From contig NZ_FOFS01000004.1 of assembly GCF_900111015.1 (NCBI RefSeq), positions 1 to 64,000 on the forward strand: a stretch of 64,000 bases of DNA. The letters are read 5' to 3'. Below the pieces are notes generated by a model. The model was given only the letters and a program-made list of their open reading frames with translations. It had not been told where the DNA came from and ran no database searches. Shown piece after piece: positions 4,732-55,904 of the stretch (positions are counted from its first letter, which is position 1; each line of letters starts with the position of its first letter). Made by a program: the position numbers and the translations under genes. Source of the DNA: Solimonas aquatica (GTDB taxonomy: Bacteria > Pseudomonadota > Gammaproteobacteria > Nevskiales > Nevskiaceae).

Positions 4732-4842
4732 TTTGCGGCAGCCCCCTGGCCATCCGGTGATCCCAGTACCGCAGTCTAGCGAGGCCAAACCCCCGCCCCG
4801 CGCTCCGTTCACCGGCGCAAAGCTGCCGCTTGGCGATCAGGC

Positions 4843-5104
4843 CCTGTTAACCATCCCTTTGCCCGCTGCGTTGCTGCCAGAAATCGCGCCAGGCAAGGCG
4901 CGAAACGCAGGCCTTGGTTGGTGCCAAGGCCAAGTTTCGCAACGCCGCATGGCGCGATTTCTGGCGCAACCCGAAGGGACGGGGCGGTTTTGGCGCAGCG
5001 CGGCGTTGGCAGCCGCTGGCTTGGAATCACCAAGCGGCGCGTCTGCCGCCTTGCCCTGCGCCAAAACAGCCGCCGTCGCAGCGGGCAAAGGGATGGCTAA
5101 CAGG
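4843..5104. repeat. Structured MITE-like element, copy 1
   Basis: Arms of 28 bases (4843-4870 and 5077-5104) are complementary with a single mismatch. Inside are a 13-bp stem (AGAAATCGCGCCA with TGGCGCGATTTCT), a nested GGCCTTGG/CCAAGGCC stem and a 12-bp GTTTTGGCGCAG/CTGCGCCAAAAC stem with its own inner hairpin. The right end lies two bases from the stop codon of the CinA-like gene. The core matches the copy at 26665-26955 (inverted), but the outer arms do not. There is no coding capacity for a transposase. It fills the 4813-5106 gap. Confidence 0.85.
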
Positions 5105-5106
5105 CC

Positions 5107-5877
5107 CTAAAGCTGCTCAGGCGCGAACAAGTTCTCAATGCGCAGACCCGGCAAGGCCTGCAGACCCGCCAGGAAGTAACCATAGGCGGCACCGGCCTGT
5201 GCGCACTCGCCCTTGAAGCCGAACTCGATGTGCCGCGGCAGGCCCGGCCCGCCGCGTGAAGGCAGGCTGGACAGTCGGATGCCCGGATGCCGCGCCAGTG
5301 TGGCCTGCATCAGCGGCAGCAGATCGCCCTCGCCCGAGCTGCCGACCACCCGCAGACGAAATTCCACATCCGGCTCGGCGCGATGCAGGTGGGCCAGCTG
5401 CGTGTCCAGCACCCATTCCAGCATCGGCCAGGCCATTTCCGGAAAGCCGGGCACGAAATAGCTGCGCCCCACATAAAAACCGGCAACACGGTTGACCGGG
5501 TTGGGAATCAGCCCGGCCTCACGCGGGAAGTCCGCCATCAGCACGCGATTGGGCCAGGCCGCGTCACCGTACTGCGCCACGATCAGCGCCTCGGCCTCGG
5601 GATGCCGCGTCAGCGGCAGGCCATAGGCGCGCGCCGCCGCCTGGCGCGTGCAGTCATCCGGCGTGGCACCAATGCCGCCGCAGGACAGCAGCACATCACC
5701 ACGCGCATGCACGGCCGCGATCGCCTCGGCGATGGCCTGCTCGTCGTCACCGATGAATTGCGCAAAACCCAGCTCCATGCCGCGCGCGCGCAGCAGTTCC
5801 AGCACCTTGGCGAAGTGTTTGTCCTGCCGCTTGCCGCTCAGGATTTCATCACCGATCACGAACAGGCCAAGGGCCAT
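5107..5877 (-). CDS. CinA-like molybdopterin-binding-domain protein
   Basis: The 256-residue protein has the MoCF/MoaB-type fold seen at the N-terminus of CinA: GLFVIGDEILSGKRQD at the start, GDVLLSCGGIGATPDD around residue 70 and a YFVPGFPEMAWPMLEW segment. It lacks the C-terminal nicotinamide-nucleotide deamidase domain, so by analogy it belongs with the short competence/damage-inducible protein A group; some relatives hydrolyse ADP-ribose or recycle pyridine nucleotides. The exact substrate is unknown. The ATG at 5877 has GAGG a suitable distance upstream; an in-frame TTG at 5892 is less likely. The structured repeat begins immediately beyond its stop codon. Confidence 0.85.
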   Translation of the reverse strand: MALGLFVIGDEILSGKRQDKHFAKVLELLRARGMELGFAQFIGDDEQAIAEAIAAVHARGDVLLSCGGIGATPDDCTRQAAARAYGLPLTRHPEAEALIVAQYGDAAWPNRVLMADFPREAGLIPNPVNRVAGFYVGRSYFVPGFPEMAWPMLEWVLDTQLAHLHRAEPDVEFRLRVVGSSGEGDLLPLMQATLARHPGIRLSSLPSRGGPGLPRHIEFGFKGECAQAGAAYGYFLAGLQALPGLRIENLFAPEQL

Positions 5878-25202: not shown

Positions 25203-26654
25203 TCAGTGCACGGTGCAGACCATGCAGGGATCAAAAGAGCGCACGATGTGCTGCACCAGCACCGGATCTTCTTCGCCGGCGGCCATCGGCACACCCACCA
25301 GCGCCTGTTCCAGGGCACCGGGAACGCCCTGCGCATCGCGTGGGGAGAAATTCCAGGTGGTGGGCGCGATGATCTGGTAATTCGCGATGCGGCCTTTGTG
25401 CACGCGCAGCCAGTGGCCGAGGCTGCCGCGTGCGGCTTCCACCAGGCCCACGCCCTGCGCCTCGATCGGCATCTTGGCGAAGGCGCAGTAAGGCTTGTCG
25501 GACTGCAGCGCGCGCAGCCAGTCCTCCATGGCCAGCAGCACGCGCGCGATTTCCAGCAGACGGGCAATCACCCGCGTGGCGACACTGCCGCCGCCGCGCG
25601 CCACCAGATCGCGGATCAGGCTCTGGCCATCCACCAGCTGCCGCGCCAGCGCGCCCACCTCCATCACCTCGCCATTGAGCCGGGGCGCCTTGCACCAGGA
25701 ATAGGCGCCGGGACGGTTCTCATCCGGATGCGTGCGACCTTGCGCGGGCGGCAGGCTGAGCTTGTCGCCCTGCATCCAGCTGTGCGAGATGTCCTCGGCA
25801 ATCGCCGCCAGATCCAGGCTGCGCGCCGCGCCCCGGTCCCAGACCCCGCGCGCAAACAGGCGCTCCTGCTGCAGCGGATAGGCGCCGTAGCTCAGATAGC
25901 GTTCACTGCCGCGGCCCACCGCGTACAGATCCAGCTGCTCGGCCAGATGCAGGAAGGTGCGCAGATCGCTCTGGTGCCAGGCCGCCTGTGCGCGCCAGGC
26001 CTCCAGCTCCTCGCGACTGCTCAGCGCCGCGATGCGTTCCAGGCTGTCGCCGTAGAGTCTTTGTTCGAGAAAGCGCCGGAACTGCGCCAGCAGCGCCAGC
26101 AGGCGCAGACGCTCGCCAGGCTCCACCGCACGCGAGCTGCCGCCCGGCTGCAGCGTGAGGGTATGCGGCCACTTGCCGGCCAGCGTGCCCATCAGATGCA
26201 GGAATTCGGCGCGCGCGCGCAGCACCTCGGCGGCGGCGCTGCCGCTCAGGGCGCGAAAACGCGCGGCCACGTGTTCATGCCAGGGCCGCGCGGCATAAGC
26301 CTCGCGCGCGAAGTCGGGCATGAAGAACAGATAGAAGTGCGAGAGATGGTCGGCAAGATTCTCGCTGGCCAGAATCAGGTTGGTGACCAGCTCGCCGTTG
26401 CGCGGCATCTGCAGCTGCATGGCGTCGGCCAGCGCGGCAGCGGCGGCCATCGACTGCGCCACCGAGCAGATTCCGCAGATGCGCGGCGTGATCACCAGCG
26501 CATCGCTGGGCGCCTTGCCTTCGAGTATCTGCTCGAAGCCGCGAAACAGCGGCGAATTGACCTGCGCCGCCACGATGCGCTCTTCGCGCACCGCCAGATG
26601 CACCTCCAGATCGCCTTCCACGCGATTGAAGGGCCCCAGTGTGATCTGTCTCAT
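25203..26654 (-). CDS. hoxC: Regulatory (H2-sensing) NiFe hydrogenase large subunit
   Basis: This is the HoxC/HupV large subunit of the cytosolic H2 sensor (group 2b). The 483 residues contain L1 RICGICSVAQS (Cys60, Cys63, with Gln where most uptake enzymes have His) and end exactly at the L2 motif DPCMVCTVH (Cys477, Cys480). The protein thus has no cleavable C-terminal peptide and needs no maturation endopeptidase, as known for regulatory hydrogenases. GSLGHW and NYQIIAPTTWNFSPRD are further family features. It is separated from hoxB by a 291-base repeat element, unusual for partner subunits. The natural partners are HoxB and the kinase encoded at 36712. Confidence 0.95.
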   Translation of the reverse strand: MRQITLGPFNRVEGDLEVHLAVREERIVAAQVNSPLFRGFEQILEGKAPSDALVITPRICGICSVAQSMAAAAALADAMQLQMPRNGELVTNLILASENLADHLSHFYLFFMPDFAREAYAARPWHEHVAARFRALSGSAAAEVLRARAEFLHLMGTLAGKWPHTLTLQPGGSSRAVEPGERLRLLALLAQFRRFLEQRLYGDSLERIAALSSREELEAWRAQAAWHQSDLRTFLHLAEQLDLYAVGRGSERYLSYGAYPLQQERLFARGVWDRGAARSLDLAAIAEDISHSWMQGDKLSLPPAQGRTHPDENRPGAYSWCKAPRLNGEVMEVGALARQLVDGQSLIRDLVARGGGSVATRVIARLLEIARVLLAMEDWLRALQSDKPYCAFAKMPIEAQGVGLVEAARGSLGHWLRVHKGRIANYQIIAPTTWNFSPRDAQGVPGALEQALVGVPMAAGEEDPVLVQHIVRSFDPCMVCTVH

Positions 26655-26664
26655 TTAGCTCTTA

Positions 26665-26955
26665 GAACCTGTCCGTGAATTGCGCGCGTCTGCGACCGAG
26701 CTCGTTTTGCCGCAGGGCAAGGCGGCAGACGCGCCGCTTGGGATTCCAAGCCAGCGGCTGCCAACGCCGCCCTGCGGCCCCAGTAGTCCACCGGGGGCCC
26801 CGTCCCTTCGGGTTGCGCCGAAAATCGCACCGTGCGGCGTTGCGAAACTTGACCTTGGCCCCGTCAATCGCTTTTGGGCCAAGGCCTGCGTTTCGCGCCT
26901 TGCCCGGCGCGATTTTCGGCAGCAATGCAGACGTGCGCAATTCACGGATAGGTTC
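26665..26955. repeat. Structured MITE-like element, copy 2, inside the hoxB-hoxC operon
   Basis: Outer arms of 29 bases (26665-26693 and 26927-26955) pair with two mismatches. Read on the minus strand it has the same internal order as copy 1: a CGAAAATCGC/GCGATTTTCG stem, GCCTTGG/CCAAGG stem, and a GCCGCAGGGC/GCCCTGCGGC stem with the GCTTGGAATC hairpin. It fills nearly all of the 301 bases between hoxB and hoxC, beginning directly against the hoxB stop codon and ending 10 bases before the hoxC ATG. Confidence 0.88.
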
Positions 26956-27960
26956 TCAGTCTTCCGGGCGGTGGATCGCGGGCGGGATGATCGCGCGCGG
27001 CTGCACTGCGTTGAGTTTGACGCGCTTGGGGGTCGCAGCCTTCGACAGGGAGGCCAGCGTCACGAACCAGGCCTTGGGCATGTCGGCGGGCAGGCCGATG
27101 GGAATGCCGGCGATCTTCGGCGTCACCGCAAAGGCATGGCCGGGTTCTTCGAAATTGGGCGCCGTGCAGTTGATGCAGGCATAGCCACCGCGCGTGCAGG
27201 AGCCTTCACCGTTCCACAGGCGCGTGTTGCAGTCGCCATGCGCCTGGGTGCCCTTGCAGCCCAGATGCTCCATCATGCAGCCGATATCGGAGGCCTTCTC
27301 GGCGCTGGCCTTGAATTCGTAATACTCATTGCGCGTGCAGCCGTGATGCACCAGCTGGTCGGCATACATGCGCGGCCGGCCCAGCGCGTCCAGCGCATCC
27401 TCGTCCAGCTCCCGCAAGGCCAGTGCTGCCAGGGTGTCGATGACCCAGCCCGGATGCGTGGGACAGCCCGCGACATTGATCACGCGCAAGCCCTCTTTCG
27501 AGCGGTACTCGGCGCCCAGCGCGCCGCCCAGCTGCGCGCCGTCGTACTGCAGGCCGCAGGCGTCGGACGGGTTGGCACCGGCGGCGGTGACGCCGCCATA
27601 GGCCGCGCAGCTGCCGACCGCCACGGTATAGCGCGCGCGTGCGGCCAGGCTGCGCACCCAGTCCAGCATCGGCCGGCCGCTGCCGCCGAACAGATGGAAG
27701 CGGCCGCTGCCATTGGGCCCCCGCAGCAGCGAGCCTTCCACGCACAGCGCATCCAGGGCCTGCTCACCGGACTCGATGCGCGCCAGCAGCGCCAGCGTCT
27801 CGCGCCCGGACGCTTCGCTCAGGGAGGGATGCCAGAGCAGATCGATGCCGAAACCATCCAGGGTCGAGAGCACGTCCGGCGATTCGGCGCAGAGCAGCGA
27901 CATGGTGCAGCCACCGCAACCCCCGGACTGCAGCCAGAGAACCTTGAAACGCTCATTCAT
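26956..27960 (-). CDS. hoxB: Regulatory (H2-sensing) NiFe hydrogenase small subunit
   Basis: The 334-residue iron-sulfur subunit of the H2 sensor (HoxB/HupU) relays electrons from the NiFe site. It begins MNERFKVLWLQSGGCGGCTMS with no twin-arginine signal, so it stays in the cytosol. Cluster ligands are visible in SGGCGGC, VGSCAAYGG, NVAGCPTHPG, HHGCTRNE, GCMMEHLGCKG and the ACINC segment. Length equals that of known HoxB. I chose the ATG at 27960, preceded by GGGGGAG, over an extension 24 residues upstream. The gene is followed by the structured repeat and then hoxC. Confidence 0.95.
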   Translation of the reverse strand: MNERFKVLWLQSGGCGGCTMSLLCAESPDVLSTLDGFGIDLLWHPSLSEASGRETLALLARIESGEQALDALCVEGSLLRGPNGSGRFHLFGGSGRPMLDWVRSLAARARYTVAVGSCAAYGGVTAAGANPSDACGLQYDGAQLGGALGAEYRSKEGLRVINVAGCPTHPGWVIDTLAALALRELDEDALDALGRPRMYADQLVHHGCTRNEYYEFKASAEKASDIGCMMEHLGCKGTQAHGDCNTRLWNGEGSCTRGGYACINCTAPNFEEPGHAFAVTPKIAGIPIGLPADMPKAWFVTLASLSKAATPKRVKLNAVQPRAIIPPAIHRPED

Positions 27961-28076
27961 CTTTTTTCTCTCCCCCGGATCTTTGGAGGTGAGCGTGGAG
28001 CCAGGACCAGTCCGCCGCGTCTCATCGCCCACATCTCAGCTCTCAGCAACAAGCCTCACACGCCACGATCATACGC

Positions 28077-35965: not shown

Positions 35966-36695
35966 GGCGCGGCAGCGCCGTAAGCAGTCGGGCCTTGCTG
36001 TTGCTTGCTTCGTTTTGTTCTTGATCTATTGGCTTCTTCCACCGCCCTTCGGCGGCGGCCGCAGAAGCTCCCCCGTAGGTCGCTTCTGCTCTCTTTGCTT
36101 GTGCAAAGAGAAGTAAGCAAGAGAAAGCACACCCCGGCTCTGGCGCCCGCTACGCCGGTGCCTGAGCTGTGCAACGTGCTCGGGGCCGTTGCGGACACGC
36201 CATCCCTGGCGTGGCCGCAACTGAGCCGCCCTTGCCAAGCGGCTCTCCCCTGCGCGCGCCGCACAGCTCAGCGCCAGAGACGGGGACCCCAAAGTCAAAA
36301 GCCACAGCAACAGCAGCTTCGAGCACGGAGCGTCGCTGCGCTGTTGCTTTTGACTTGCCCCCCTTTGCCTCGCACCGAGCAGCGCAGCGAGCGCAGTGGG
36401 AGAATCGAACAGGAAGTTCGATTCAGTTGCAGCCGCGCCATGGATGGCGCGTCTGCAACGGCCCCGAGCACGTGAGCAGCGCTTACCTGCCGGCGCCGCG
36501 ACAGCGGCGACGGATGCGAGGCGCAGGGCGTGATTTCTCTTGGGTACTTCTCTTTGCACGAGCAAAGAGAGCAGAAGCGACCTACGGGGGAGCTTCTGCC
36601 GCGGGCGCCGACAGGCGCACGAAACCAAAACCATATAAGGCGATTAGCCAAGCAACAAGAACGGCGGGTTACGGCGCTAGCGCGTCTAACCCGCC
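35966..36695. repeat. Dispersed REP-doublet repeat, copy R2
   Basis: This roughly 730-base copy fills the 35926-36711 gap. It has a degenerate REP half at the left (35966-35994), a clear REP (GGCGGGTTACGGCGC) at 36663-36695, palindromes CTCTTTGC/GCAAAGAG at 36091-36110 and 36550-36569, and many internal hairpins. A perfect 38-base inverted pair lies at 36061-36098 and 36562-36599. The same repeat, inverted, is at 55207-55904. Open frames across it are short and hairpin-derived, so I call no gene. Confidence 0.9.
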
Positions 36696-55206: not shown

Positions 55207-55904
55207 GTAGGGCGGGTTAGGCGCGCCAGCGCCGTAACCCGCCATGGCTTTGCTGTTGCTGCTCGGTGTGATGCTCGATCTGCGCTTGGTTTCGTGCGCC
55301 CTCCGGCGCCCGAGGTACTTCTCTTTGCTCGTGCAAAGAGAAGTACCCAAGAGAAAGCACGCCCTACGCCTCGCATCCGTCGCCGCTGTCGCGGCGCCGG
55401 CAGCCTGCGCTGCTCGCGTGCTCGGGGCCGTTGCAGACGCGCCATCCATGGCGCGGCTGCAACTGAATCGAACTTCCTGTTCGATTCTCCCACTGCGCTC
55501 GCTGCGCTGCTCGGTGCGAGGCAAAGGGGGTTAAAGGCAACAGCAAAGCAGAGCTTCGCGCGCGAAGCTGCTGTGGCTTTTGACTTTGGGGTCCCCGTCT
55601 CTGGCGCTGAGCTGTGCGGCGAGCGCAGGGGAGAGCCGAACAGGAAGTTCGGCTCAGTTGCAGCCACGCCAGGGATGGCGTGTCTGCGACGGCCCCGAGC
55701 ACGTTGCACAGCTCAGGGACCGGCGCAGCCGGCGCCAGAGCCGGGGTGTGCTTTCTCTTGCTTACTTCTCTTTGCACAAGCAAAGAGAAGTAAGTCCGCC
55801 GCCGGAGGGCGGTGGAAGAAGCCAATCAATCGAGAGCCAAACCCAGCAGCAAACAACAAAGCCAAAGCGGCGGGTTACGGCGCTGCGCGCCTAACCTGCC
55901 CTAC
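55207..55904. repeat. Dispersed REP-doublet repeat, copy R3 (inverted relative to R2)
   Basis: The copy is bounded by opposing REP hairpins (GTAGGGCGGGTTAGGCGC at 55207-55243 and its complement at 55869-55904). Palindromes CTTCTCTTTGC/GCAAAGAGAAG are at 55318-55343 and 55775-55800. Between them the sequence is the reverse complement of R2 over most of its length, including stems built on GTTCGATT and GCCATCCATGGC. It fills the 55158-55964 gap between glgB and glgX. I call no gene in it. Confidence 0.9.

Follow-up and report, generated by a model that had tools for sequence, protein, structure and literature searches.

A putative MITE-like element family of ~270 bp with changeable ends and a multi-branched architecture kept by Watson–Crick covariation across genera

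The element in the window, its fold and its family

The window, by which we mean the whole 64,000-nucleotide stretch of Solimonas aquatica DNA that was analysed (contig NZ_FOFS01000004.1, positions 1 to 64,000), contains two copies of an element with extensive internal pairing. Copy 1 (end type A1) occupies 4840–5107 on the forward strand, and copy 2 (end type B, GAACCTRTCCGTGAATTGCGC) lies inverted relative to it at 26665–26955 on the reverse strand, between the genes for the large (25203–26654, −) and small (26956–28032, −) subunits of a NiFe hydrogenase. It adjoins the small-subunit stop codon and lies ~10 bp ahead of the start of the large-subunit ORF. The initial annotation had placed copies with common internal sequence at 4843–5104 and, inverted, at 26665–26955, and both are present there; its description of a two-copy element did not hold, as a search of the 4.43-Mb S. 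aquatica genome with copy 1 returned 85 matching pieces, representing ~40 family sites when counted by eye.

The consensus fold resembles a cloverleaf and comprises an outer arm helix of ~30 pairs, a large hairpin (X), a 9-nt mini-hairpin and a second large hairpin (Y). In copy 1, with all features on the forward strand, the left outer arm is a type-A end beginning GGCCCTGTTAACC (4840–4869) and the right outer arm spans 5076–5107. Hairpin X (4871–4969) is closed by TTGC/GCAA and has the bulges GCAAGGCG and CAACGCCG; it is followed by the mini-hairpin CCC-GAA-GGG (4970–4978), two of whose three pairs are invariant in 44 sequences, and by hairpin Y (4980–5075), in which the bulge motif of X recurs as its reverse complement. 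Folded as single-stranded DNA, copy 1 (as 4839–5108) gave −121.9 kcal/mol (z = −13.8) and copy 2 −111.1 kcal/mol (z = −11.1), and none of 200 shuffled sequences folded as well as the window copies. By motif scoring, X and Y are in the standard orientation in 30 of the 33 S. aquatica copies, one hairpin being flipped in the other three (L026, L029 and L032), and were scored as standard in 54/73 elements from relatives and 61/68 from genome contigs, the remainder being flipped or undecided. Palindromes made of arms only were also found, in S. aquatica (L097, 57 bp; L112 and L117, about 48–55 bp) and in genome G036 (L235, 62 bp).

Within this frame, individual modules vary. In copy 2 a small extra hairpin in one arm of Y replaces GTTTTGC and leaves a stretch unpaired, a feature that the initial annotation lacked. 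A 20–25-nt hairpin like GGCCCCAGTAGTCCACCTGGGGCC replaces one Y arm in several of L016, L027, L030, L031, L033, L034 and the window copy at 26665–26955, a longer loop, CCCAAAAGCGATTGACGGGG, is present in some copies instead of the short X loop, and the two modules are swapped between sub-families. Extra palindromic sequence inside both X and Y was seen in L245 (G026, about 1500–1915), which measures ~410 bp in all. The exact motif of tandem G·A pairing within the inner stems is limited to 27 of 174 elements and was not taken as a family trait. A higher conservation of unpaired bases than of paired ones was proposed and then dropped; mean conservation is 0.698 in paired and 0.667 in unpaired columns, and from this similarity it follows that the bulges are conserved only as islands.

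A core match (E 0.001) was obtained in 29 of 41 genomes (S. aquatica and 40 relatives), and a pattern scan of a wider genome-contig collection found at least 115 stretches matching the core. Hosts among the listed matches include Azotobacter, Stutzerimonas, Pseudomonas, Vreelandella/Halomonas, Salinicola, Chromohalobacter, Salinisphaera, Stagnimonas/Nevskiaceae, Chromatiales, Candidatus Tenderia, Nitrococcus, a zetaproteobacterium MAG and others; matches in Planobispora and a planctomycete MAG (L415, L421) gave no arms and were left out. Among the 115 genome-contig stretches listed, 80 are the element with paired arms, 27 are cut at an end and 8 gave none, while the loci from relatives or plasmids have paired outer arms in 87 of 108 cases, with some overlap between loci and perhaps a few spurious matches. 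At least 6 of 369 genomes sampled from the class contain the strict core pattern, and this count is a minimum, as the pattern misses G032, which carries the element by alignment. Four plasmid records contained the element and a scan of viral contigs with the pattern gave one matching contig; searches of phages with two element copies gave no match. No prior description of the family was found in Rfam or in the open-licence literature searched.

The median length of 174 elements is 270 bp (5–95% range 266–285). This set, from which identical elements were dropped, combines 33 S. aquatica copies (unfiltered) with 73 elements from relatives and 68 from genome contigs, the last two groups having been pre-filtered to 255–300 bp. 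For S. aquatica, 34 of the ~40 sites were extracted, with partial copies L028 and L035–L039 omitted; the cut-off copy L022 was dropped from the S. aquatica counts, and the three copies with a flipped hairpin from the S. aquatica alignments. L155, which has a large insert, was excluded from the set of 36 representatives. The family is thus below ~500 bp, multicopy and mostly intergenic, as is typical in size and location of MITEs, and its paired outer arms constitute terminal inverted repeats. With a crude ORF caller, a called ORF lies within 250 bp on both sides for 77% of 119 placed elements.

The window also contains matches to the Rfam motif TwoAYGGAY (RF01731) at 36398–36465 (+), 55424–55491 (−) and 55585–55754 (+). 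Two of the three are near-identical and inverted, and represent another repeated palindromic element.

Insertion sites and transposon-like ends

Copy 2 is absent from the same site in relatives. The same two hydrogenase genes occur in five of them (G004–G008) with flanks 33–100 bases apart and no element, and in G006, where the site is empty, the sequence continues from TCAGTC, the stop codon bordering copy 2 here. The TCA flank of copy 2 (26956–26958), which is the small-subunit stop codon in complement, aligns to TCAGTCCTCC in the G006 site, and is proposed to form a 3-bp target duplication with the TTA flank at 26662–26664, from which it differs at one base. Copy 1, for which only the right flank was matched in relatives, has CA at 4838–4839 facing TA at 5108–5109, and sister copies point to a 2-bp target duplication. 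Counted by eye, 16 of 26 type-A copies are flanked by TA at each end, and 4 of 7 type-B copies have an identical TTA or TAA at the two ends. Since TA is self-complementary, a target duplication at type-A ends is indistinguishable from an inverted repeat.

In genome G024, an IS of ~1.2 kb apparently lies in the TTAA of an element arm (L203, about 998–2484), and 840-bp IS elements stand at the TA end of other elements (L295 and L302). Element ends appear to serve as insertion targets for IS elements in this genome.

Candidate IS elements were found by PF13340/PF01609, and for the G genomes the term IS5-type is a reading from these domains, length and ends, ‘IS5 family’ being an annotation of plasmid records only. 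In some hosts, the outer ~20 bp of the element are the same, or almost the same, as the terminal inverted repeats of 862–866-bp IS5-type IS elements. G029 has an IS of 862 bp with ends CTAGGGCGTGTTGCCGTTT, and the element arms of its genus mates G032 and G038 are CTAGGGCCTGTTGCCGTTTC; the element extracted from G029 itself differs at three places. One end of an 866-bp IS in G035 is identical to the element arm of that genome over 20 bases, the other end showing two differences, and an Aeromonas caviae plasmid carries an 862-bp element, annotated ‘IS5 family transposase’, with CTAGGGGCTGTTGACGTTT at both ends. This sharing is confined to type-A-like arms (the genus of G029, G035 and the Aeromonas plasmid). 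No IS partner was found among the searched genomes for type-B and TAGGGAA-type ends, the IS elements in G009, G024 and G036 differ in their ends from the elements of the same genomes, and S. aquatica has no IS with matching ends (two PF01609 matches, neither fitting, and none to PF13340). Provisionally, the element behaves as a MITE with IS5-type ends, an IS partner having been found for part of the family. An origin of the arms from the target, which the initial annotation had offered, is contradicted by arms that are common within sub-families and in some cases equal to IS5-type ends.

Covariation across the family and the behaviour of paired positions

According to their ends, the S. aquatica copies form sub-families A1 (TAGGGCCTGTTAACAATCACTTTG...), A2 (TAGGGCCTGTTAACGCTATGG...), A3 (TAGGGTCTGTTGACATTCAC...) and B (TTAGAACCTATCCGTGAATTGCGC...). 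The window copies belong to different sub-families (A1 and B), so that their arms look unrelated and the core is common to both. Their left arms are 0.33 identical over 24 bases (best of 7 shifts), as expected from the unlike outer arms noted initially, and the match of each left arm to its own right arm is 0.92 in copy 1 and 0.88 in copy 2. By eye, one mismatch in 28 positions (copy 1) and two in 29 (copy 2) were confirmed, and the reported stem changes AGAAATC/GATTTCT versus GAAAATC/GATTTTC and the flipped G-C pair by CGCAG/CTGCG are likewise present. The view of nearly unrelated arms is correct for these two copies but not as a general rule, arms being conserved within a few sub-families of the genome; many copies with conserved outer arms, the observation named as decisive against the initial view, are thus seen inside sub-families and not across the family. 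For 174 elements (best of 7 shifts), a left arm has a median match of 0.917 to its own right arm versus 0.50 to the left arm of another element.

Covariation was examined in 44 elements, each with <80% identity to the others. Of 3,929 cells, 94.2% were paired, and two-sided changes were seen in 85 of 90 pairs. Shuffling gave 66.7% paired cells and 62.4 two-sided pairs, with the observed values reached in 0/500 shuffles, and moving the partner by 1–3 columns left 37–41% of cells paired. The covariation score was 0.681, versus 0.170 when shuffled and 0.095–0.118 when slid, and two-sided cells numbered 1004 versus 254 in shuffles; one-sided wobble cells, summed by hand from the 44-element table, came to 56. 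Covarying pairs are found throughout, in the arms (30/31), the outer X helix (helix 2, 19/20) and the outer Y helix (helix 6, 20/20). Predicting the structure from the same alignment as was tested favours this result, but hardly to the degree observed. One architecture is kept by Watson–Crick covariation across genera, and the earlier statement that pairing rather than sequence is kept holds far above both controls. This suggests that the fold of the DNA, and not its sequence, is what is preserved.

Covariation is usually read as a sign of functional RNA. Selection on an RNA fold should leave more G·U than A·C on the functional strand, and this was measured on strand-neutral pairs, chosen by Watson–Crick content on both strands. 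In overlapping sets, G·U:A·C was 39:53 (30 S. aquatica copies), 97:125 (the 44 elements), 102:100 (36 representatives), 200:197 (71 relatives) and 305:349 (144 elements). An RNase P RNA control from 30 of the genomes gave 76:38 by cells and 13:12 by columns, and its separation by cells but not by columns implies a limited power of the strand test. For 73 co-directional insertions, the coding-strand ratio was 133:134; a first coding-strand count (86:101), superseded by this one, had used a measure with a failed control. That measure, based on Watson–Crick-only folds, gave 88:89 (73 relatives) and 30:51 (33 S. aquatica copies) and was abandoned, as RNase P was also unbiased (8:14). Consensus folding that permits G·U leans to G·U on whichever strand is read, with 261:248 and 274:231 on the two strands for relatives, 87:56 and 101:60 for S. 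aquatica, and 122:118 versus 167:108 for the 36 representatives (36:34 and 35:34 by columns); RNase P gave 192:82 on the true strand and 175:111 on the other.

We also followed how individual pairs change. Among 30 S. aquatica copies, copy-specific pair states were 67 one-sided, 7 two-sided Watson–Crick and 10 other two-sided (7/84 compensated), and states present in at least two copies were 38, 26 and 11, respectively (26/75). Single copies therefore decay, and compensated states are more frequent among those that have spread, one-sided states still being more numerous. For the 36 representatives, shared states were 75 one-sided and 145 two-sided Watson–Crick. In 69 independent sister pairs there were 114 two-sided Watson–Crick changes versus 6.3 expected from independent changes, together with 20 two-sided changes that were not Watson–Crick on both sides. 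Transitions make up 69 of the 114 Watson–Crick changes (0.605), a share that equals the one among single changes (0.620) rather than the 0.839 predicted for two independent steps and so speaks for a single step in which one arm is copied from the other. Grouped by identity of the sister pairs, the share was 11/15 (≥0.95), 34/52 (0.91–0.95) and 24/47 (0.86–0.91), and 11/14 in pairs from S. aquatica.

Interpretation and relation to known systems

The best explanation, to which we assign a probability of about 0.58, is that the family consists of MITE-like mobile DNA elements, ~270 bp long and non-autonomous, with changeable ends and a fold that acts as DNA. IS5-type transposases may move the element in trans by binding its ends. 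The fold would act at the DNA level, as a cruciform or as a single-stranded hairpin, for example on the lagging strand, a proposal that stems from departures from pairing without a G·U preference on either strand. Loss of the fold would reduce the spread of a lineage, and templating of one arm by the other while the element is folded may also help to keep the arms matched; both ends could thus change together on passage to a transposase with different ends.

Several other readings account for part of the data. Hairpin-templated copying alone, during replication or repair of a folded strand, would turn one mutation into a matched pair and dispense with selection on the fold; we regard this as rather doubtful. 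The initial annotation had raised hairpin-templated repair, which is possible on the present data, as the excess of two-sided changes in the 69 sister pairs and their single-change transition share are what copying predicts, and the flipped hairpins in 3 of 33 S. aquatica copies point to exchange between arms. However, copying should erase the asymmetric bulges (GCAAGG / CAACGCC), which by eye are kept across genera in most rows, and copy-specific changes are mostly one-sided. The spectrum is, moreover, undecided in the closest sister pairs (11/15, which both models fit) and nearer to two steps in the S. aquatica pairs, recombination or repeated hits may affect the older pairs, and the near-identical L001 and L002 are mixed, with two arm positions at which only L001 pairs and one at which only L002 does. 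It is unlikely that the family is an ordinary MITE, whose long inverted repeats reflect transposase recognition only and whose inner hairpins are passenger palindromes: the match of the outer ~20 bp to IS5-type ends in some hosts and the arms-only palindromes of about 48–62 bp would suit such an element, but X and Y, away from the ends, covary as fully as the arms.

A structured RNA that rides on a mobile element, with selection acting on its RNA fold, whether a small RNA, an mRNA stabiliser or a terminator, seems less likely again. The very stable fold and strong covariation agree with it, copy 2 would be included in the mRNA of the hydrogenase gene pair, transcription of bacterial MITEs is reported in PMC10969869 and PMC3733652, and with G·U-permitting folds G·U outnumbers A·C in some sets on the strand read; the near two-fold symmetry of the element also leaves room for an RNA role indifferent to strand. 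Against this stand the lack of any G·U excess on strand-neutral pairs or the coding strand, in a test whose RNase P control was clear by cells only, and the results at the elements themselves. No Rfam family reached its gathering score at the window elements or at 13 further loci (at the latter, tRNAs only), and all 16 matches of a relaxed scan of copy 1 fell under their cut-offs, the best by E-value being isrG (0.00048; 22 bits versus 100). Likewise, the 119 placed elements are without bias to gene ends (77 tandem, 18 convergent and 24 divergent, by the same crude ORF caller). Where the initial annotation had left selection on an RNA or a DNA fold as alternatives, DNA is preferred, with a caveat for the limited power of the strand test. 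Mobilization as a REPIN-like element by a RAYT (Y1 tyrosine transposase) is highly improbable. Two inverted hairpins and compensatory changes would fit, and 12 of 15 genomes searched have Y1_Tnp (RAYT-like) genes, at one to four per genome, but element sequence was found at 0/21 Y1_Tnp loci (flanks up to 1.5 kb) versus 1/30 control loci, and S. aquatica, G005 and G033 have the element with no Y1_Tnp match.

Beyond the preferred reading of a MITE-like element with a DNA-level fold, we tentatively raise a further possibility, that of a self-matching fold-back transposable DNA in which the multi-branched fold serves to copy one end from the other, keeping the two terminal repeats identical even as they drift, such that the core switches between IS5-type transposases and persists across bacterial orders. 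Such a mobile element would, in that case, pass on a DNA shape and not a sequence. The strong covariation without a wobble signature points to DNA, and calls for caution in covariation-based discovery of RNAs. The family offers a natural, many-copy record of how the arms of inverted repeats stay matched; it makes hairpin-templated correction and selection for DNA cruciforms, both old ideas, testable, and is relevant to the way in which non-autonomous elements keep up with changes of transposase.

Among known systems, bcr1, NEMIS and ERIC are mobile intergenic repeats with stable predicted folds, as in this family, but they have other hosts. Bacterial MITEs related to IS5-family IS elements are similarly short and multicopy, with terminal inverted repeats and, in some hosts, ends common to a full IS, and their short target duplication resembles the one proposed here. 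Unlike these, the present family has a constant multi-branched core while the end type changes, and Watson–Crick covariation through its whole length. REPINs (REP doublets), for which PMC3116915 reports compensatory hairpin changes and mentions a clover configuration, are also small mobile DNA hairpins and represent the nearest idea found in print; the present element, in contrast, is ~270 bp long with transposon-like ends, TA or TNA flanks and no RAYT link in the tested loci. Finally, PMC3733652, which also names bcr1, NEMIS and ERIC, describes GTAG/CGTC REP dimers within longer palindromes, and these similarly nest a hairpin pair in a palindromic frame, whereas here the frame is a transposon-like pair of ends and the whole unit is constant in length.
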